Assembly: GCA_017513095.1 (NCBI GenBank)
Contig: JAFWDJ010000032.1
Coordinates: 1 to 39,813, forward strand
Length of the DNA: 39,813 bases
DNA from: Clostridia bacterium
Lineage (GTDB): Bacteria > Bacillota > Clostridia > Oscillospirales > RGIG577
Reading direction: 5' to 3'
Below are positions 25,807 to 32,934 of the stretch, in pieces. Below the pieces are notes generated by a model. It was not told the DNA's origin and ran no database searches. It saw nothing but the letters and a program-made list of their open reading frames with translations. The position numbers and the translations under genes are program-made. The number at the start of each line of letters is the position of its first letter. Position 1 is the stretch's first letter.

Positions 25807-25889
25807 GCGGGTGTGGTGAAATTGGCAGACACGCAAGATTTAGGTTCTTGTGCCCACGCGTGCAGGTTCAAGTCCTGTCACCCGCACCA
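25807..25889 (+). tRNA. tRNA-Leu (anticodon UAG)
   Basis: An 83-base class II tRNA. The acceptor stem GCGGGTG pairs with CACCCGC, the anticodon stem CAAGA/TCTTG encloses TTTAGGT with TAG at 25841-25843, a long variable arm follows, the T arm has GGTTCAAGTCC, and CCA is encoded. Its 3' end is the integration target of the element that follows; because the element restores the acceptor and T-arm sequence, the gene stays intact. Confidence 0.97.
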
Positions 25890-25890
25890 A
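25876..25890 (+). other. attL, left attachment site in tRNA-Leu 3' end
   Basis: The 15-base core TGTCACCCGCACCAA, identical to 32591-32605. It covers the acceptor 3' strand and CCA of tRNA-Leu. Confidence 0.88.
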
Positions 25891-25922
25891 AAACGGCAGT
25901 TTTTTAACTGCCGTTTCTTTTT
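25891..25922 (+). terminator. Element-supplied terminator for tRNA-Leu
   Basis: AAACGGCAG/CTGCCGTTT stem followed by a T-rich tail. It lies inside the element, just past attL, so after integration the element provides the tRNA's transcription stop. Confidence 0.85.
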
Positions 25923-25934
25923 CTCAAAGTGCCC

Positions 25935-26032
25935 AAAAGTCAGTGTTTATGCGGGTTTTTGGCGTTTTCGGCGTGATGTTAAATACTGTTAAATCAAGCT
26001 AAAATACCGTTCGGTAGCACACGGTAGCACAC
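25935..26032 (+). promoter_or_regulatory. Left integrase arm-type repeats
   Basis: This holds AAAAGTCAGTGTTTATGCGG (25935-25954, continuing GTTTTTGG), AAATACTGTTAAATCAAG (25981-25998) and two tandem GGTAGCACAC (26013-26022, 26023-26032); a third GGTAGCACAC is at 26091-26100. All but the last have counterparts at 32489-32576. Probable Int/Xis arm sites of the attP region. Confidence 0.7.
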
Positions 26033-26148
26033 TAAAAAACACGGCACAACGCGAGGCGTCAAGCGGCTTTTTCGGGCATAAAAAATCGGCGGTAGCACAC
26101 TTTTAGACGGCAAACGCATAATTGCCCCCAAAAACCCGTATTTTTGTA

Positions 26149-26188
26149 ATAAACAAAACGGCGGCAGACTTTTTTACGGTCTGCCGCC
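26149..26188 (-). terminator. Terminator of the leftward element operon
   Basis: GGCGGCAGAC/GTCTGCCGCC stem (10 bp) with T-rich sequence on the minus-strand 3' side (GTTTTGTTTATT). Confidence 0.65.
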
Positions 26189-26551
26189 TTCGTTCATATC
26201 TGCCTCGATTTACGCCTGTCACGACGTCGCGGGAAGCTGTCGCCTCATGTCCGAGCTTCCCTTGTATTGCGTCCGCGCCCGCGTCCGAAAAGCCGACTCA
26301 TGCGTCCGCGTCCGCCCTGCATCACTCCTGCCCTCAGGCGATATATCCCTCTCGTCCTCCCTGCATCGAGCCTGTTAGCAGGGAGAAAAAACGCCCTCAA
26401 TTTACGTCTGCGGCCGGTTTCGCACCGGTATTTAGGTATGCGTCCCACTGTTATGTCCACTGTTATCAGCGGGACGCGCCGCCCCCCTGAAACCGTTTTT
26501 TTCACCGTTTTAAAACCGTTTTATCGGTGGACGCCCGCATACCCGACTCCC
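26189..26551. other. Stretch without a convincing gene
   Basis: Between the operon terminator and the sigma-like gene. Open frames exist on both strands, but none has a ribosome site or a recognisable protein. Three spaced ACCGTTTT-type repeats lie at 26489-26524. It may be a decayed coding region. Confidence 0.4.
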
Positions 26552-27376
26552 TCACGGGCGATCGTGCGCGTCAAACGCATCGCCCGACGCCTCGCGGCTC
26601 ATAAAGCGGTCATACGCGGCCTTCATCATGGCCTGCCGCTTCCCGTAGGACAAATACCGCGCCCGTGACTCCCGTGCAATCTCGCGGCGCACCGCAGCCG
26701 CTTCCGCCGAAAGGCCGAACATATCCGTCGACTGCCAAAGCGCGCCGTCGTGATAATGCCTTCCGTAATCCTCATACAGCCCGCGAAGCTCCCGCGCGCT
26801 CCTCAGCTTGCGCATCGCCGCACTGTACTGCGCCGCGATATCGGAACGGTCTGCGCCGCATAACGCCGCGATCTCACAAAACGACGCGCCGCGCCAAAAT
26901 CGAAGCTCTATAATATGCCTCTGCGTCTCGGTAAGGCCAAGCATCGCCGCGCGTATGCGCTCCTGCACGTCGGAAAGCTCCGCCGCCCTGTATGCGTCCG
27001 AAGCCCTCTCATCGGCCACCGTATCAAAGAGCGTTATGCTCTCGTCCTCGTCAATGTACGCATCGCCGCTCACCTCACGGTACGCGCCGCCGTGACGCGG
27101 CAGCCCCGATTGTCTTACGGCGGCATTGCGCAAATGATAGCCAAGATACGTCGCGAACGCAAAGCCCTTTTCGGGATCGTACGCCGCCACCGCGTCAAGA
27201 AAGCCGAAATACGCGCACTGCGTTATATCCTCGGCGTCAATCCAATTCGGAAGCCTGAGCCGCCGCGCAAATTCCCGCATAAGCTTAATGCAAAGCCCCT
27301 GCACCTCCTCCCACAGCGGCGTTAAATACTCCGTATGCCCCGCCCGTGCCATAAGTGCCATGTGTTCTCTGTCCAT
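26552..27376 (-). CDS. Sigma-70 family RNA polymerase sigma factor-like protein
   Basis: A 274-residue protein with a sigma region 2-like segment (about 44-90: DAEDITQCAYFGFLDAVAAY, then FATYLGYHLRNA) and a region 4-like helix-turn-helix (about 147-195: LTETQRHIIELRF, then CEIAALCGADRSDIA). A tail of about 80 basic residues has no recognised domain. Such proteins occur in clostridial prophages and integrative elements, where they are thought to direct late or accessory transcription. The ATG at 27376 has GGAGG 8 bases upstream. It is the last gene of the leftward operon. Confidence 0.8.
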   Translation of the reverse strand: MDREHMALMARAGHTEYLTPLWEEVQGLCIKLMREFARRLRLPNWIDAEDITQCAYFGFLDAVAAYDPEKGFAFATYLGYHLRNAAVRQSGLPRHGGAYREVSGDAYIDEDESITLFDTVADERASDAYRAAELSDVQERIRAAMLGLTETQRHIIELRFWRGASFCEIAALCGADRSDIAAQYSAAMRKLRSARELRGLYEDYGRHYHDGALWQSTDMFGLSAEAAAVRREIARESRARYLSYGKRQAMMKAAYDRFMSREASGDAFDAHDRP

Positions 27377-27425
27377 GCCGCGCCCCTCCGTGTTATAATA
27401 CTGTCGGAGGAGCGCGGCGCATCGG

Positions 27426-27602
27426 TCATCGGAGCTTGCGTGAAGCCGCTTCGGCCTTTTTCTGCAAGGAGCGAATACGCACTTCTTCGCCTACGAGCAT
27501 ACAGAAGTATTTGAAGTCCACGTATCCCTCGCCGTAACAGCGTTCTATCTGCGCCGCTTTCCTCTCTGCGGCCTTTACGGCGTAATAATAATCATTAGTC
27601 AT
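27426..27602 (-). CDS. Small hypothetical protein (58 aa)
   Basis: A 58-codon frame starting at an ATG with AAAGGGG 7 bases upstream, 13 bases after the dnaB stop. The product begins MTNDYYYAVKAAERKAAQ and ends with a basic, charged helix-like stretch (SLQKKAEAASRKLR). It has no recognised family. Ribosome site, tight spacing and orientation support it as a real operon member. Confidence 0.65.
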   Translation of the reverse strand: MTNDYYYAVKAAERKAAQIERCYGEGYVDFKYFCMLVGEEVRIRSLQKKAEAASRKLR

Positions 27603-27615
27603 ATCGTTTCCCCTT

Positions 27616-28878
27616 TCACTCGATTATCCCCGTAGCGGGGAACATCTTCATAAAGACGTCGCCGCACTTGCCGTGCCTGTGCTTCGCCACGTTAAAAGAA
27701 ATCCCCTTGAACTCACCGAGCTTGTTCGTCCCCTCGGTCTCCGTCTCCGACAGGAGAATAACGCCGTCGGCATCCTGCTCCAAATTGCCGCTGTCGCGCA
27801 GATGAAATACCTCCGGTGCGCCCTTTGCCGCTTCACGGTTAAGCTGAGCGAGGCACAGCACGGGGACGCCGAACTTTAATGCCATCTGCTTTAACTCCCG
27901 CGAAAAGTCGCTTATAACGTCGTAGCGCGAGCGCGTATCGCCCGCCTGACGCGACAAAAGCCCGATGTAGTCTATTACCACAAACTCCGGCTTGTCCTTC
28001 ATGCGGCGTATCTGCGCGCTTATCTGAGCCGTCGTCGCTCTCCCCGAAATACTGCGGAAGCGGCTTGTTTTGAGCCGCGATATCGCCTCCGTGACGCGGC
28101 GGCGTTCCTCGTCGTTCATTTCGCCGTTTAAGACCTTCGTATACGTCACGACGGCTTCTCGCGCCACACGGCGCGCCGCTATCTGCTCTGCGGTCATCTC
28201 CATGTTCACGTACATGACAGTCTTGCCGCGCGTCGCCACGTTCTGAGCTACCGAAAGCGCGACCGTCGTCTTTCCCTTGCCTGGACGCCCCGCCAATATG
28301 TAAAGGCCGCCCTCTACAAATCCGCCGCCCAAAATGCGGTCAAGGGGGGCAAAGCCCGTGGGGACGCGCACCTGTCCGCCTTCCGCAAGACTGCGGGCAA
28401 GCGCGATAAGGTCTGAATTATAAAAGACGTCGTTCGCCTTCGCGCCCTTTTCCTTTGCCGCTTCAAGCGCATTGAGTACATCCTCCGTTATCTCGTCTAC
28501 GTCCCTGCCCGTTGCGATATCCTCGTGCACCCGAAGGGCGAGTTCATTAAGACGATTGCGCGCCGCCTTCTCTCTGAGCCCTGCGCAGTAATCGGGCAGA
28601 GCCGCCACACTCCCCACGGCCTCCATAGCCGCAAGCCACACGGCCTTGTCTGCCGCCTTGCCGTTCTTTTCAAGCAGAGCCATTACCGTAAGATGATCGA
28701 TATTCGCTCCCTCGTCGGACAGCGCACACGCGGCCTCGAACGCATCCCTGTATTCGGAAGTCGTGAAGTCCTCGGCGGCTATCAGTCCCGCTGCCGTTAT
28801 TAAGGCGTCTTCATCACCGAGAAGGATAGCCCCGATTATCGCTTGCTCAATATCCTGAGCATCAAAATTATTTATCAT
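27616..28878 (-). CDS. dnaB: Replicative DNA helicase DnaB
   Basis: A 420-residue hexameric 5'-3' replicative helicase. The N-terminal DnaB domain (about 1-105) starts QDIEQAIIGAILLGDEDA, and the RecA-like C-terminal domain has Walker A GRPGKGKTT (197-205), MEMTAEQIAARR, Walker B VVIDYIGLL and the LRDSGNLEQDADGVILL motif of the family. It is shorter than chromosomal DnaB (about 440-450) and is coded by the element, next to a replication initiator-like gene, so it probably serves element replication after excision. The start codon overlaps the stop of the upstream 51-residue gene. Confidence 0.94.
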   Translation of the reverse strand: MINNFDAQDIEQAIIGAILLGDEDALITAAGLIAAEDFTTSEYRDAFEAACALSDEGANIDHLTVMALLEKNGKAADKAVWLAAMEAVGSVAALPDYCAGLREKAARNRLNELALRVHEDIATGRDVDEITEDVLNALEAAKEKGAKANDVFYNSDLIALARSLAEGGQVRVPTGFAPLDRILGGGFVEGGLYILAGRPGKGKTTVALSVAQNVATRGKTVMYVNMEMTAEQIAARRVAREAVVTYTKVLNGEMNDEERRRVTEAISRLKTSRFRSISGRATTAQISAQIRRMKDKPEFVVIDYIGLLSRQAGDTRSRYDVISDFSRELKQMALKFGVPVLCLAQLNREAAKGAPEVFHLRDSGNLEQDADGVILLSETETEGTNKLGEFKGISFNVAKHRHGKCGDVFMKMFPATGIIE

Positions 28879-29023
28879 GCTCTATATCCTTTCTTAAGTT
28901 TTTTGTCGCTTTAATTTCGGCAATTGCTTTTTTGGCAATCTCATGACAAGGCTTTCTCTCCATTATGCCGTCAGCGACTTGATCGGCGACAGCCTCCAAC
29001 CAATTATTTGAATTATTATTCAT
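28868..29023 (-). CDS. Small hypothetical protein (51 aa)
   Basis: A 51-codon frame whose end overlaps the dnaB start by 11 bases, with AGAGG 6 bases before the ATG. The product (MNNNSNNWLEAVADQVADGI, then a lysine-rich half) has no recognised domain. Overlap with dnaB suggests translational coupling; a role in helicase loading can only be guessed from position. Confidence 0.65.
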   Translation of the reverse strand: MNNNSNNWLEAVADQVADGIMERKPCHEIAKKAIAEIKATKNLRKDIEHDK

Positions 29024-29101
29024 TGTTTACCTCTGTTCTTAATTGGCGGGGAGCGCGCTTTTCGCGGCGCGCCCCCGCCTGTTTTATTATTTAGTTTTAT
29101 C

Positions 29102-29503
29102 TTATGTTTTTAATGCGTCACCTTTTTGGACTACGCTGTCGTCACCTTTTTGGACTACGCTGTCGTCACCTTTCTGGACTACGCTACCTTCACCTTTAGG
29201 TAACGGTACGGCTGTGTTCGTGAGCTTGTAGCGCGTTGGGTTTTTCCCGTTCGTTTTATAATCCAGAATGCCGTGATTAAAAAGCTCGTCGCGTGCGCGT
29301 ATTATAGTTTCTTTCTTCAAACCCGTATAGTCTCTTAAATAATCCAGCGTAGCGAGAAACCATTCTGGCCAGTACGCCGAATTGTCCACCTCTATCAGGC
29401 ATAGCCACAATAAACGCGCCCTTGGGCTTAATTTAAGTTTTCGGGAGAACGCAATGGCATGTCTCATCTCCGATATGTAGTTTCTTGAATTACTTTCGCT
29501 CAT
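29102..29503 (-). CDS. Replication initiator-like helix-turn-helix protein with 8-residue repeats
   Basis: A 133-residue protein. The N-terminal 100 residues (ISEMRHAIAFSRKLKLSPRA to LFNHGILDYKTNGKNPTRYK) look like the winged-helix part of phage and element replisome-organiser proteins. The C-terminus is three tandem repeats of the type GDDSVVQK, coded by a 24-bp DNA repeat at 29117-29188. Related proteins are often longer, so this one may be shortened after the repeats. It lies upstream of dnaB. The start at 29503 follows GAGGAAAG. DnaD-like or O-protein-like function is inferred, not proven. Confidence 0.7.
   Translation of the reverse strand: MSESNSRNYISEMRHAIAFSRKLKLSPRARLLWLCLIEVDNSAYWPEWFLATLDYLRDYTGLKKETIIRARDELFNHGILDYKTNGKNPTRYKLTNTAVPLPKGEGSVVQKGDDSVVQKGDDSVVQKGDALKT
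29117..29188. repeat. Three tandem 24-bp repeats inside the initiator-like gene
   Basis: The unit GTCACCTTTTTGGACTACGC plus TGTC occurs at 29117-29140 and 29141-29164 (identical) and 29165-29188 (few changes), with a degraded fourth start at 29189. In-frame; resembles origin iterons placed in an initiator gene. Confidence 0.9.
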
Positions 29504-29681
29504 TTTGGCACTTTCCTCTTGTCAAGGCCGTGCCTTGAGTGATAAAGTATAAATATAGGATTACCCGCTTCGGCGGGACTTGCATACTTCTATTCCGGCG
29601 CACCGCCAAGTGAAAAGTCGGGATAGAAGTATTTTTTTGCCCCGATGCCGCTCGCCACAAAGGTGGCTCTCTTGCTGTCAT
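29490..29681 (-). CDS. Possible small protein (63 aa)
   Basis: An open frame with an excellent ribosome site (GAGGAGG, 7 bases before the ATG at 29681), starting 15 bases after the excisionase stop and overlapping the next gene by 14 bases. The product (MTAREPPLWRAASGQKNTSI and on) shows no recognised family, and the frame runs across a strong inverted repeat. It could equally be a translated leader or non-coding. Confidence 0.35.
   Translation of the reverse strand: MTAREPPLWRAASGQKNTSIPTFHLAVRRNRSMQVPPKRVILYLYFITQGTALTRGKCQNERK
29585..29638 (+). terminator. Strong hairpin with T-run, opposite to the surrounding genes
   Basis: TACTTCTATTCCG (29585-29597) pairs with CGGGATAGAAGTA (29619-29631) with one mismatch, followed by seven T on the plus strand. 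It has the form of a rightward intrinsic terminator inside a leftward operon. Confidence 0.6.
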
Positions 29682-29695
29682 GGTCACACCTCCTC

Positions 29696-29899
29696 TCATA
29701 CGTGCTTCTCACGGCACCACGCTTCGAAGGCGCGACGCTCAACTTTGTAATTCTTACCCACACGGATTACAGCCGGCCCATCCTTTCTGTAGAACAGCTT
29801 ACGTGCCGTGGGGATCGAGCAGCCAAGCATTTGGGCAATATCCTTTGTTGTGTAAAAAATCAGTCTCTCGTCATTCTGGTCTGCAGTTTTATCTATCAT
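29696..29899 (-). CDS. Excisionase-type helix-turn-helix protein
   Basis: A 67-residue MerR/excisionase-like DNA-binding protein: YTTKDIAQMLGCSIPTARKL is the helix-turn-helix, followed by the wing and RRAFEAWC. Such proteins direct integrase towards excision or regulate the operon. The start at 29899 is chosen because AAGGAGG lies 8 bases upstream; an in-frame ATG at 29917 lacks a site. It overlaps the upstream gene by 11 bases. Confidence 0.85.
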   Translation of the reverse strand: MIDKTADQNDERLIFYTTKDIAQMLGCSIPTARKLFYRKDGPAVIRVGKNYKVERRAFEAWCREKHV

Positions 29900-30209
29900 G
29901 GATAAGACCTCCTTCATTAATATCTTTGCGTCTGCGCGCGGCGGCGAAATTGAGCTTCGCCCGCGCGCTTAATTTACGCCGCGTTTCCTCGCTTATTTTA
30001 CGAGGCTTTTTAACCCCTATAAGCTTCTTGGTGAAAGTATACGTCCTTGAGTGTTCGTCCTCGGAAATAAGGGTAACTGTCGAGGATTTTGCCCTCATTT
30101 CGTCGAGTATACGCATGAGCCGCCTGTCGTGCGTATAGCAGACGGCGTTTTCCTCGCCCTCGTTATACGTGATAACGGTCTCCTGCTCGACTTTTGATAA
30201 TCGCGCCAT
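29889..30209 (-). CDS. Conserved element-associated hypothetical protein (106 aa)
   Basis: Starts at the ATG at 30209 behind AAAGGAG. The product begins MARLSKVEQETVITYNEGEE, has a middle part HDRRLMRILDEMRAK, and ends with a basic segment (KKPRKISEETRRKLSARAKL). From memory, similar VEQET-starting proteins are frequent next to excisionases in clostridial integrative elements; their function is not known to me. A role in early regulation or DNA binding is inference from charge and position. Confidence 0.75.
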   Translation of the reverse strand: MARLSKVEQETVITYNEGEENAVCYTHDRRLMRILDEMRAKSSTVTLISEDEHSRTYTFTKKLIGVKKPRKISEETRRKLSARAKLNFAAARRRKDINEGGLIHDR

Positions 30210-30223
30210 GTAATGCTCCTTTC

Positions 30224-30379
30224 TCACGCCTTGCCTTCGGCCTGAAGTTTCTTTTCCGCCTTGCGCTCCCAATAACGCTTGTTATTTTCGGCGATGCGTG
30301 CCTTGTTCTTTCGGCGGTATTCACGGTAATACTCTCGCTTGGTTTCTTTGACCGTCTTTTCAAGTTCGGAACGCTTCAT
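30224..30379 (-). CDS. Small basic element protein (51 aa)
   Basis: Starts at the ATG at 30379 after a GGGGGGTG site. The product is strongly charged and probably helical (TKREYYREYRRKNKARIAEN, then NKRYWERKAEKK). It is the first gene of the leftward operon, 15 bases upstream of the 106-residue gene. An upstream in-frame ATG (30484) would cross the promoter and is rejected. Function unknown; short proteins of this YYREYRRKN type are common in phage early regions. Confidence 0.7.
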   Translation of the reverse strand: MKRSELEKTVKETKREYYREYRRKNKARIAENNKRYWERKAEKKLQAEGKA

Positions 30380-30410
30380 TAGTTCACCCCCCTTTGTTTT
30401 TATTTTTCTC

Positions 30411-30439
30411 TTGACTTTGTTTGGGAACAATGATATTAT
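30411..30439 (+). promoter_or_regulatory. Rightward promoter (repressor-integrase)
   Basis: TTGACT, 17-base spacer, TATTAT. Its -10 overlaps the -10 of the leftward promoter. Confidence 0.7.
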
Positions 30440-30462
30440 AATTGTGACAAAATAAAAGTCAA
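30435..30462 (-). promoter_or_regulatory. Leftward promoter (excision-replication operon)
   Basis: Minus strand: TTGACT, 16-base spacer, perfect TATAAT at 30440-30435. The two promoters share the -10 region on opposite strands. Confidence 0.7.
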
Positions 30463-30508
30463 GCCAAAAACAAAAATATGTCATGTCAAATTAAACTTTG
30501 TGACAAAA
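30442..30508. promoter_or_regulatory. Candidate repressor operators
   Basis: The palindrome TTGTGACAA, each time followed by AA, occurs at 30442-30452 and 30498-30508. The first copy lies in the leftward promoter's spacer; the second lies between the rightward promoter and the repressor start. A spaced form TTGT-N6-ACAA is at 30417-30430. Confidence 0.5.
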
Positions 30509-30536
30509 ATCAAGAATGAAAATGGGAGGTCTTCCT

Positions 30537-31310
30537 ATGAGTGACAAAAAAACTATTGAGAATGTTATTGATCTGGATAGATTGAGAGCACTTATCGATA
30601 AGGAAAAGGCGAGGCAAGTCATTGCCGATAAAATCGGATGTAACGTGTCGTTGATAACGCGCCATTATAATGCACAGAAAATTGTAACCGTTGATTTCCT
30701 GAAAAAGTATGCCGAATACTTTAACGTATCCGCCGATTACTTATTAGGCTTGACCGATGCGCCGACGAACGACAAAGATTTACGCTTCGTATGCGACTAT
30801 ACGGGCTTGAGTGAAGAAGCGGTCAAGAGTATCAAATACGCCGAGAAAAATACGCTGCTTTCCGCAGGATATAATTTGCTTGACATAAACAAAGTGGATA
30901 AATATATAGACCAAGCGCGTCCGATTATATCTCATATACTCTCAAACAAGCAGTTTTACGGTTTGATTGCGAAGCAGCTGATTATTAGAGCGAACAAATT
31001 GCGGCAGATTGAAATACTGTATGAGTTTGATAAGGCTTATGACACCGTTTTCTCAAATGAAGGCAAAACTCCGACAGAGAAGGATATAGGATATGTGCTG
31101 AAGGCAAACGATGAGGTTTTGAAATTATATAGCGAAACGAAAGCGTATGCCTATGATATGCAGGAGGATTTAAAAGTAATCTTTCCGTTTTTCAACGATT
31201 TACCAAGCAGAGATAAAATAGACAAGCTGCGAGAGGTTGTCCACAGGTGGACTTACGTAAGAGCATTGGAAAAAGCGAATGACAACACGGGAGGTGCAGA
31301 CAATGGCTAA
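30537..31310 (+). CDS. Cro/CI-family repressor
   Basis: A 257-residue protein with an N-terminal Xre-type helix-turn-helix (about 10-70: LRALIDKEKARQVIADKIGC, then SLITRHYNAQ, ending FNVSADYLLGL, a typical Xre C-cap) and a helical C-terminal part with no peptidase motif, so it is not a LexA-like self-cleaving repressor. It is clearly more AT-rich than the flanking genes. The ATG at 30537 follows GGGAGGT. It overlaps the integrase start by eight bases, so lysogeny control and integration are co-expressed. Confidence 0.85.
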   Translation: MSDKKTIENVIDLDRLRALIDKEKARQVIADKIGCNVSLITRHYNAQKIVTVDFLKKYAEYFNVSADYLLGLTDAPTNDKDLRFVCDYTGLSEEAVKSIKYAEKNTLLSAGYNLLDINKVDKYIDQARPIISHILSNKQFYGLIAKQLIIRANKLRQIEILYEFDKAYDTVFSNEGKTPTEKDIGYVLKANDEVLKLYSETKAYAYDMQEDLKVIFPFFNDLPSRDKIDKLREVVHRWTYVRALEKANDNTGGADNG

Positions 31311-32478
31311 GAAGAACGCTAACGGCGACGGCGGCATATTTTACAGCAAGTCTCAAAAGCTGTGGCGCGGTCAGATAACCATAGGCTACGACGAGAACGG
31401 CAATCAGAGACGCAAGAGCGTTTCGGGCAAGAACCCGCAGGAGGTCAGGCAGAAGCTCAAGCAGATCGAGTACGGCATATTCTCCGGCGAATTCGTCGAT
31501 AAGAGCAATATAACGATATACCACCTTGCAAAACAGATGATCGTCGACAAGTACAATCTGAACGAGATAAAAGAAAACACGTATCTTACTCACATTTCGA
31601 CGCTGAAGCGGCTGCAGCCCATATACAATACGCCGCTTCAGAAGGCGAACGAAACGCAGATCAGGGCTTATCTGCAGGGACGGATAAATAAATCGAACTC
31701 CATACTGAAAAAGGACTTTCAGCTTCTCAACGCGACGTTCAAAGAAGCAATTAAGCGCGAAATAATCACAAAAAACCCGATGGATCATATAAAGCAGCCG
31801 AGGTCAAAGCAGAAGCGCGAGAAGGTAAGAGCCTTCACACTCGACGAGCAGAACAAGCTTCTCTTTGTCCTTCTGAACGTGGATATAAAATACAGCCGGC
31901 AGATGCTTCTGTCCATGTTTACGGGAATGCGCATGGGCGAAGTCAACGCCCTGACGAAGCGGGACGTAAATCTTATATTCAATACGATAAGCGTAAACAA
32001 GACGATCTCACGCGGCGAGAAGGGCAAGGCCGTTTTGGGCGATACGGCAAAGACCTACGCGGGCAACAGGACGATTATAATGACCGAGGACGTTCGGACG
32101 ATACTTTCGGAGTGCATGGAATACGCCGAAGGCGATATGCTCTTTACGACAGAAAGCGGCGGCCTCGTTACGAGCAATCAGGTGAACATGGAGCTTTCGC
32201 GCGTCCTGAAGAAATATAAGATAGTCGACGAGACGGTACGCGGGAAGGTGTCGTGCCATTCTCTTAGGCACACATACGCCACAAGGATGATTGAAGGCGG
32301 TATGCAGCCGAAGGTATTGCAGAAGCTCTTAGGGCATACGGATATAAGAATAACGATGGACACATACTGCGACGCCTTCGATAAATTCCAAAGCGAGAAC
32401 ATCGCCGCCGCGAATGAATATCTTCGTCAAAACGGCCTCACATTACAGCCTTCCAAACAGGCTTCCGATGCCGTATAA
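31303..32478 (+). CDS. int: Tyrosine recombinase (integrase)
   Basis: A 391-residue phage-type integrase. It has an N-terminal arm-binding domain (GDGGIFYSKSQKLWRGQITI), a SAM-like core-binding domain (about 70-165) and the catalytic domain with R210 (TGMRMGE), H319-x2-R322 (CHSLRH), H345 (LLGHTD) and the nucleophile Y355 (TMDTY). It catalyses recombination between the tRNA-Leu core and the element's attP. The start at 31303 has GGGAGGTG upstream and overlaps the repressor gene. The right arm-type repeats and attR lie just downstream, a normal int-att layout. Confidence 0.96.
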   Translation: MAKKNANGDGGIFYSKSQKLWRGQITIGYDENGNQRRKSVSGKNPQEVRQKLKQIEYGIFSGEFVDKSNITIYHLAKQMIVDKYNLNEIKENTYLTHISTLKRLQPIYNTPLQKANETQIRAYLQGRINKSNSILKKDFQLLNATFKEAIKREIITKNPMDHIKQPRSKQKREKVRAFTLDEQNKLLFVLLNVDIKYSRQMLLSMFTGMRMGEVNALTKRDVNLIFNTISVNKTISRGEKGKAVLGDTAKTYAGNRTIIMTEDVRTILSECMEYAEGDMLFTTESGGLVTSNQVNMELSRVLKKYKIVDETVRGKVSCHSLRHTYATRMIEGGMQPKVLQKLLGHTDIRITMDTYCDAFDKFQSENIAAANEYLRQNGLTLQPSKQASDAV

Positions 32479-32488
32479 AAACGCTGAC

Positions 32489-32576
32489 AAATACTGTTAA
32501 ATCAAGTTGAAAATACGATGCGTAGCACACGGTAGCACACTAAAATTTAAAAAAGTCAGTATTTATGCGGGTTTTT
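32489..32576 (+). promoter_or_regulatory. Right integrase arm-type repeats
   Basis: AAATACTGTTAAATCAAG (32489-32506), GTAGCACAC twice (32521-32540) and AAAAGTCAGTATTTATGCGG (32551-32570, continuing GTTTTTAG) match the left-end repeats at 25935-26032 with only a few differences. Confidence 0.7.
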
Positions 32577-32590
32577 AGGGGGTATTGTTT

Positions 32591-32605
32591 TGTCACCCGC
32601 ACCAA
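32591..32605 (+). other. attR, right attachment site
   Basis: TGTCACCCGCACCAA, identical to attL. It is the original tRNA-Leu 3' end left outside the element after integration. Confidence 0.88.
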
Positions 32606-32646
32606 GCCGCCGTCTTGCCCCATTCGGGGTGAGGCGGCGGTTATTT
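32606..32646 (+). terminator. Displaced original terminator of tRNA-Leu
   Basis: GCCGCC/GGCGGC with an inner GCCCC/GGGGT pairing and a T-rich tail directly after attR. Before integration it would have followed the tRNA CCA end directly. Confidence 0.65.
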
Positions 32647-32649
32647 ATT

Positions 32650-32789
32650 GTGACAGGACTTGAACCTTAAGAAGGCGGGCGCCGTTAAGAAAACAGTCCG
32701 GTGGACTGTTTTTAGGCGGCCGGAGCGCAGGCGGCTGTGCCGACAAGCTCGGCATATGCAAAGCATATGCGGTCCTGTCACCCGCACCA
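32650..32789 (+). repeat. Structured unit carrying a second tRNA-Leu 3' end
   Basis: GTGACAGGAC (32650-32659) and GTCCTGTCAC (32772-32781) form perfect 10-bp inverted ends, which are themselves T-arm/acceptor sequence of tRNA-Leu; TGACAGGACTTGAACC (32651-32666) is the exact complement of the tRNA stretch 25865-25880. Inside are hairpins AAAACAGTCC/GGACTGTTTT (32690-32712), GCCG/CGGC (32739-32753) and GCATATGC/GCATATGC (32752-32770). It ends in GTCCTGTCACCCGCACCA (32772-32789), an 18-base match to the tRNA 3' end. Confidence 0.75.
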
Positions 32790-32797
32790 TGAAAGGC

Positions 32798-32845
32798 AAA
32801 TCCGAACCCTTCGCCAATCGGCCCGGGTTCGGATTTGTTGTTTGT
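32798..32845 (+). terminator. Terminator-like hairpin after the second tRNA 3' end
   Basis: AAATCCGAACCC (32798-32809) pairs with GGGTTCGGATTT (32825-32836), followed by a T-rich tail. It could also stop leftward cinA transcripts. No gene is seen in 32846-32934. Confidence 0.6.
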
Positions 32846-32934
32846 TTCTAATATCCGAAATTTAATCTCAAAAATGCAAAAGCGGAAAGCGGAAGACGTT
32901 AAAGACGCATATTTCTTGCCGCCTTTCCCCCATG

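Follow-up and report, generated by a model that had tools for sequence, protein, structure and literature searches.

Gene-less folded units behind tRNA genes of Oscillospirales have ends that follow the resident tRNA and are possible cassettes exchanged at the T-loop

What is a 140-nt segment that opens with the complement of a tRNA gene, closes with a copy of that gene's 3' end and folds in between? Such a unit lies in the window, the whole 39,813-nt stretch of DNA analysed here (contig G000:C38, within a 1.99-Mb genome of 45 contigs). It is separated from a tRNA-Leu gene by a 6.7-kb integrative element; before that element inserted, the spacer upstream of the unit came directly after the tRNA-Leu CCA. 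The features of the locus are listed below.

25807-25889, + strand: tRNA-Leu, the resident tRNA (ARAGORN, Rfam, sequence).
25864-25876, + strand: T-arm core of tRNA-Leu, positions 51-63 (ARAGORN, Rfam, sequence).
25872-25889, + strand: tRNA-Leu positions 59-76 (ARAGORN, Rfam, sequence).
25890-32604: 6.7-kb integrative element with a tyrosine integrase, a DnaB-like helicase, a sigma-like factor and its own terminator.
31279-32478: tyrosine integrase gene of that element (Pfam Phage_integrase).
32591-32604: displaced tRNA end of that element, 14 nt, tRNA positions 63-76.
32605-32649, + strand: spacer with a terminator-like hairpin, upstream of the unit (sequence; such a hairpin recurs at this place in the family).
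32655-32667, + strand: T', exact reverse complement of tRNA-Leu positions 51-63 (sequence; T' tracks the resident tRNA family-wide).
32665-32675, + strand: P2 hairpin, CCTT-AAG-AAGG (fold, covariation, tracking of position 51).
32676-32722, + strand: P3 arm (fold, covariation).
32690-32712, + strand: hairpin closing the P3 arm, AAAACAGTCC-GGT-GGACTGTTTT (fold, covariation).
32723-32751, + strand: P4 arm, of varying length among units, poorly aligned, limits approximate (folds).
32752-32770, + strand: P5 hairpin, GCATATGC-AAA-GCATATGC, directly 5' of the tRNA-end copy (folds, loop sizes).
32772-32789, + strand: T2, exact copy of tRNA-Leu positions 59-76 with CCA (sequence, family-wide comparison).
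32790-32845, + strand: terminator-like hairpin 3' of T2, arms 32797-32809 and 32825-32837, right limit approximate (sequence; such a hairpin recurs after T2).

The first-pass annotation of this DNA had placed a 132-bp unit 45 bases from the attR of the integrated element. The attR indeed ends at 32604 and the unit starts at 32650; the length of 132 holds for the inverted ends alone and becomes 140 nt through the CCA. The perfect 10-bp inverted ends were located at 32650-32659 and 32772-32781, and the 18-base copy of the tRNA 3' end is, as claimed, identical to the end of the tRNA-Leu gene. The terminator-like hairpin reported after the unit is present too, and is probably the original terminator of tRNA-Leu. 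The match of the left end to the tRNA complement is real, but was given as 16 bases: over 17 tRNA-Leu bases, GTGACAGGACTTGAACC (32650-32666) matches the reverse complement exactly, and the match of T' extends leftward to 32650, equivalent to tRNA position 68. Likewise the internal hairpins exist, but they form four arms (P2-P5) and not three. The 3' strand of P2 (AGG, 32673-32675) repeats tRNA-Leu positions 51-53, and the pairing of T2 with T' (P1) closes the fold. Predicted folding is strong both for the RNA from 32640 to 32850, terminator behind the unit included (z = -7.1), and for single-stranded DNA from 32650 to 32789 (z = -6.95), with 0 of 200 shuffles equalling it in either case. The 16-base tRNA end occurs three times in the window at up to three mismatches, against 0.17 expected.

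The unit is a member of a family, and the earlier expectation that similar units stand beside tRNAs in other Clostridia was borne out by nucleotide, covariance-model and pattern searches. Relatives were found by nucleotide search in 39 of 197 related genomes, the unit's own genome counted. A covariance model built from 16 units had matches in at least 121 of 394 genomes of the window's order and in at least 7 of 398 sampled from the whole phylum, the unit's genome again among them; 8 candidates were scored per genome in both scans, so copy numbers and occupancy are lower bounds. The genome of the window unit holds further copies behind tRNA-Leu(CAG), behind tRNA-Pro(GGG) and on another contig. 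Each ends in the 3' end of its own tRNA, and where these copies match the window unit, nucleotide identity is 87-94%. They occupy three other contigs in total, always no more than about 400 bp from a contig end. Among the matches listed in the pattern search, the named genomes are metagenome-assembled ones of Clostridia, Oscillospiraceae and Ruminococcus, for the most part from the guts of herbivores. Unit-rich genomes have about 14 to 18 matches each (G163 18, G152 14, G236 14) against 30 to 43 tRNA matches. Across the model and pattern sets, 25 tRNA anticodon types precede units, including those of Leu, Pro, Arg, Lys, Thr, His, Ser, Met, Gln, Glu, Ala and Trp.

Variants of the layout were also observed. 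At Lys, Thr, Gly and Glu tRNAs the T'/T2 framing also encloses a second type of body, AGTCCATCTTTTGC...GGGACATAAAAT (L289, L296, L298 and L299 in G236; L320 in G303), and an extra GC-rich module of about 105-110 nt lies between P2 and P3 at three loci (L008:2070-2190, L009:150-280, L331). Many tRNA genes at G236 loci L287-L306 have no encoded CCA, and several unit ends there are correspondingly shortened. Two units stand behind rpsI (gene end as read here) at L022:900-1400, where there is no tRNA; their ends resemble the rpsI 3' end and the body is reversed. Two matches to the unit pattern (L194, L239) are in a metagenome bin labelled Alphaproteobacteria (RGIG5000), which may reflect transfer or mis-binning.

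The relation between unit ends and resident tRNA was examined in two partly overlapping sets, some contigs being in both. The model set comprised 126 matches, of which 7 duplicates were dropped; 89 of the 119 distinct units had a tRNA within 450 nt upstream and 30 had none in the available sequence. The pattern set comprised 124 hits, 94 of them with a tRNA within 480 nt and 30 without, 15 of the latter having less than 300 nt of upstream sequence. T2 matched its resident tRNA with 0/18 mismatches in 64/89 units of the model set and with at most one in 72/89, compared with a median of 8.2/18 mismatches to the other tRNAs of the set, and matched at 18/18 positions in 66/94 units of the pattern set. 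The left edge of T2 is usually sharp at tRNA position 59: the length is exactly 18 in 43 of 65 model-set units with at least 17 matching bases, and in 56 of 66 in the pattern set. A second length mode of 21-22 nt, starting at position 55, is most frequent in genus g78.

T' also follows the resident tRNA. In a test of 93 units anchored on GAACC alone, agreement with the own tRNA was 0.94 at position 57 and 0.97 at position 59, against 0.54 and 0.39 with other tRNAs; the search pattern fixed GAACC and the purines and pyrimidines of P2, so that positions 52-56 match by construction. When T' was placed by best-match alignment to the tRNA (155/158 units kept, those with fewer than 8/12 matches or without GG at 52-53 being dropped), Watson-Crick agreement was 94-100% at each of positions 52-63 and fell to 60% at 64. 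Among 79 distinct units, position 51 agreed with the own tRNA at 0.99 and with other tRNAs at 0.76, position 50 showed no tracking (0.16 and 0.22), and the 3' strand of P2 repeats tRNA positions 51-53. T' is the reverse complement of resident tRNA positions 51-63, that is, the T-loop with three stem pairs on each side. Three parts of the unit follow the resident tRNA and not a fixed consensus: 51-63 as complement, and 51-53 and 59-76 as copies. Pairing of T' with the 51-53 strand of P2 and with T2 re-creates the core of the T-arm, a seven-base loop flanked on each side by three stem pairs, in which one strand is open between 53 and 59. That this pairing is important in itself is suggested by a G001 unit whose T2 has drifted from the tRNA: there the drifted T2 restores pairing with the drifted T' at two positions. 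Outside the order, T' and T2 of a unit behind tRNA-Arg (L080, G595) match each other better than that tRNA, and a unit behind tRNA-Met (L079, G671) has a damaged T2.

The body between these ends has a conserved fold. In 118 distinct aligned units 93.6% of cells pair, and double changes occur in 23/26 pairs. The alignment scores 0.490 for covariation, whereas shuffling gives 0.156 and sliding no more than 0.092; being fitted to the model, it is favoured in this comparison. Of the pairs in P2 and P3, 1.7% are G-U; for 237 tRNAs at these loci the figure is 5.9% in the acceptor stem and 14.0% in the T stem. Loops of three bases close 106/155 P5 hairpins, most commonly as C(GAA)G, and 155/190 P3b hairpins, by a hairpin finder that mildly favours short loops. 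With G-U pairs compared to tRNA stems alone, their scarcity and the three-base loops lean towards folded DNA over RNA.

An RNA with a tRNA-like 3' end was one of the earlier proposals. As developed here, a structured RNA would be read through from the tRNA and T' would pair alternately with the T-arm and with T2, acting as a switch or a decoy with a tRNA-like acceptor end. The covarying fold would suit such an RNA, as would the units within tRNA operons, where the spacer has no terminator (Arg-His in G303, Thr-Tyr in G236; also Thr-Tyr in G043). At most other loci, however, a terminator-like hairpin separates the tRNA from T' (130/143 distinct units; 1 in shuffled spacers), which together with the rare G-U pairs and mostly short loops weakens the proposal as judged from sequence. 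Occupancy also differs within one genus, and no Rfam family accounts for the units: at gathering score, tRNA was the one Rfam 15 family matched in the window, and a relaxed threshold at 12 loci gave nothing credible besides tRNA. We regard the RNA reading as unlikely, and retain it because T' is complementary to tRNA positions 51-58, which T2 does not contain, so that T' could pair with the tRNA itself. If it were correct, the units would be a new tRNA-linked RNA class.

The distribution of units suggests a mobile or exchangeable sequence. They occur as tandem arrays, and a terminator-like hairpin follows T2 in 103/126 units (3 in shuffled sequence). Comparison of the sequence after the two tRNA ends in 129 units showed nothing in common past the CCA in 57, a continuation as tandem units in 30, and in the remaining 42 a spacer common to both ends, the match stopping before, in or just after T'. 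The inserted segment is thus not uniquely fixed, because 57/129 repeat nothing past the CCA and 72/129 repeat the terminator and sometimes T'. Duplication with a single fixed right edge was rejected, as the right edges scatter across these units. Between G236 and G303, two species of one genus, occupancy differs at Arg(tct)-His, Thr(tgt)-Tyr, Lys(ttt), Arg(acg) and Gln(ctg), with exact junctions not resolvable because the flanks have diverged. The closest relative of a body is often at another tRNA: identity is 91% between the body at Arg in G205 and that at Ser in G163, and 86% between those at His in G152 and Lys in G205. Such comparisons indicate that units move or are exchanged. The first-pass suggestion of a small element with the tRNA end as its boundary is supported by a repeat family that is tandem, polymorphic among relatives and tied to tRNA 3' ends.

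Alternatively, the units may have no dedicated enzyme. They could be old repeats beside tRNAs whose shape is maintained by slippage, by template switching at hairpins and by gene conversion; this conversion would copy tRNA ends into them and homogenise bodies. Tandem copies of 97-100% identity are common, and double changes nearly without G-U intermediates fit template-directed correction of palindromes. At a tRNA-Glu gene (L121), spacer, T', P5 and T2 of the second unit are of the local kind and its middle alone is replaced by a version like one at tRNA-His, a pattern that suggests conversion of that part; in genus g1, orthologous tRNA-Leu units persist across species. Fixed edges at 51-63 and 59-76 across more than 20 tRNA types are, however, hard to obtain by such processes, and most genomes of the order and phylum have no units. 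We consider this account unlikely.

The reading that we favour, at a probability of roughly 0.45, is that the units are gene-less mobile cassettes at tRNA genes that undergo exchange in the T-loop, probably in the form of folded single-stranded DNA and with a recombinase supplied in trans. It is suggested by the edges at 51, 59, 63 and 76, fixed at many tRNA types, by the replacement 3' end and terminator, by the arrays and by the folded site; the patchy occupancy and the bodies common to different tRNAs are likewise observed. More tentative is the proposal that they constitute an undescribed cassette system, in which tRNA genes are the attachment site and cassettes with a folded site are inserted at 58|59 and stacked, repeatedly replacing the 3' end of an essential gene.

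We infer the exchange enzyme, strand and direction as follows. A single cassette would comprise the 59-76 end of the tRNA, a terminator, T' as the bottom strand of core 51-63, and the four hairpins P2-P5. Insertion at the 58|59 junction in the T-loop would give the tRNA an identical new 3' end and a new terminator, displacing the old end (T2) and old terminator downstream, and repetition would build tandem arrays. The double-stranded T-arm site would be mimicked by a fold of T', the 51-53 strand of P2 and positions 59-63 of T2, in which one strand is open at 58|59. There, strand exchange would be carried out by a putative site-specific, probably tyrosine, recombinase, the active form being single-stranded DNA, like an integron attC meeting attI. 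Bodies would spread among different tRNAs mainly via recombination among units.

Several observations count against the cassette reading. A tyrosine recombinase would need a match across the whole T-loop at both junctions, yet T2 usually starts at 59, inside the loop. Because a move to another tRNA would at first damage the 3' end of its new host, spread between tRNAs needs an extra step, gene conversion or selection, hinted at L121 alone. Arrival of the first terminator with the element is opposed by the flank of a unit-free tRNA-Leu(CAG) in G002, which resembles the relatives' first terminator and not their second. The covariation of the drifted T2 with T' in G001, the better mutual agreement of T2 and T' in G595 and the units behind rpsI also fit poorly.

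Ordinary integrative elements do use these tRNAs (the window, L009, L331, L173, L226, L282 and L284). Relatives of the window's 6.7-kb element are at Leu tRNAs in G001 and, in L009:1-480, start directly 3' of a unit's T2. T2 can thus serve as an attachment site. An element in G001 (L331) has 29 bases in common with the T-arm and acceptor of the same tRNA, so enzymes acting there exist nearby. The first-pass annotation had also offered a trace of earlier integration, and the layout of regenerated end, new terminator and displaced end is indeed that of tRNA integrative elements; the units are nonetheless a recurring folded form and not random debris. That they are worn-down elements, CIME-like attL-attR relics reduced to their ends, is very unlikely, as decay would not keep a covarying multi-arm fold across the order and the displaced copy of the window's element is 14 nt (63-76), not 18.

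We give a very small chance to a transposon-like insertion, by a MITE of an unknown transposase or an element of HUH/IS200 type, in which a staggered cut at 58|59 would duplicate the tRNA end. T2 does behave like an 18-bp target duplication in the 57 units that repeat nothing past the CCA. IS200/IS605 ends carry guide sequences next to a hairpin, which T' beside its hairpin recalls. The terminal sequences are, however, not conserved among copies as MITE ends are, and the IS200-type transposase family is missing from unit-rich G059, G152, G205 and G126. An IS200/IS605-derived repeat (REP/PATE) was rejected: eight IS200-type (Y1) loci had no BLAST similarity to units, and the Y1 family is present in 19/39 genomes. 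The IS200-type elements of these genomes (L334, L336, L337) end, downstream of the transposase, in a GGGCTATGCCC hairpin that is also found in P4 of genus g78 units, probably by coincidence.

Two further candidates were rejected. Reverse-transcriptase copying of the tRNA 3' end, stopped at m1A58, would explain the 18 nt, but the m1A58 methylase TrmI is essentially absent (weak matches, 3/39 genomes above cut-off) and reverse transcriptase is absent from most unit-rich genomes (RVT_1 in just 6/25 unit-bearing genomes tried). Against phage or plasmid carriage, the units had no match in phages or plasmids, and the unit pattern was in 0 viral contigs. The bare AAAACAGTCC hairpin is in 9 viral contigs and many non-tRNA repeats, so it is not diagnostic alone. 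The CAGTCC/GGACTG hairpin likewise occurs in many non-tRNA repeats (G303, L028-L031, L037, viral loci L040-L048), and some of these repeats away from tRNAs have a P2-like hairpin and GGGGC/GCCCC ends.

The unit is not confined to its genome, its fold is conserved and it matches no known mobile-element end, so none of the findings that the first-pass annotation had named as counting against it was made; its interpretation as a whole is partly supported. If the cassette reading is correct, widespread gut bacteria carry mobile units that match the identity of the preceding tRNA and rebuild its T-arm in folded DNA, a minimal recombination system acting on essential genes. The units would then also be a source of assembly breaks, as the copies near contig ends suggest, and their copied tRNA ends would provide other elements with attachment sites (L009). 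They also allow a clean test of the reasons for which integration so often targets tRNA 3' ends. Searches among open-licence papers other than preprints found no description of such units, an absence of little weight at that scope.

Among known systems, integron cassettes are gene-poor and arranged in arrays; their attC site is a folded single strand with two paired boxes around an unpaired spacer, exchanged at the box edge within a conserved GTTRRRY-type core. The units are analogous in their arrays and their lack of genes; their covarying fold, few G-U pairs and three-base loops would fit a site formed by one folded strand, with exchange at the edge of a box. They differ in that the partner site would be a tRNA T-arm and the boxes vary with the resident tRNA where those of attC keep to one consensus; alignments of the junction show a resident-dependent RTCC in place of the GTTRRRY-type core. 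Like MITEs, REPs and REPINs (PMC3116915, PMC10969869), the units are small, non-coding, palindromic and multi-copy. The ends of those repeats are conserved among copies, whereas T' and T2 change with the tRNA at each site, and conserved terminal inverted repeats were not found.

A parallel to the proposed exchange is class II (T-loop) integration by mycobacteriophage Ms6, for which strand exchange is reported to lie in the 7-bp T-loop; changes to the loop lowered integration, and a core matched to another tRNA redirected it there (PMC1762012). Ms6 differs in being an entire phage that encodes its integrase, uses a core of 26 bp and has no folded unit. Genomic islands and integrative elements placed at tRNA 3' ends by a tyrosine integrase (Islander, PMC4383910) resemble the units in that they are bounded by a regenerated tRNA end and a displaced fragment, have a new terminator behind the regenerated tRNA, and accrete in tandem. 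The units likewise have a regenerated and a displaced target end (exact in the 64/89 and 66/94 units above) and empty sites in relatives, namely at the five tRNA loci of G236 and G303 with their diverged flanks. Unlike such islands, they have about 185 bp between the tRNA ends, with no genes and no room for an integrase gene, a folded body with the inverted T-arm core (T') inside, and more than 20 tRNA types as hosts. The units resemble tRNA-integrated islands in their ends and integron cassettes in their gene-poor arrays, while sharing some and not all of the defining features of each.
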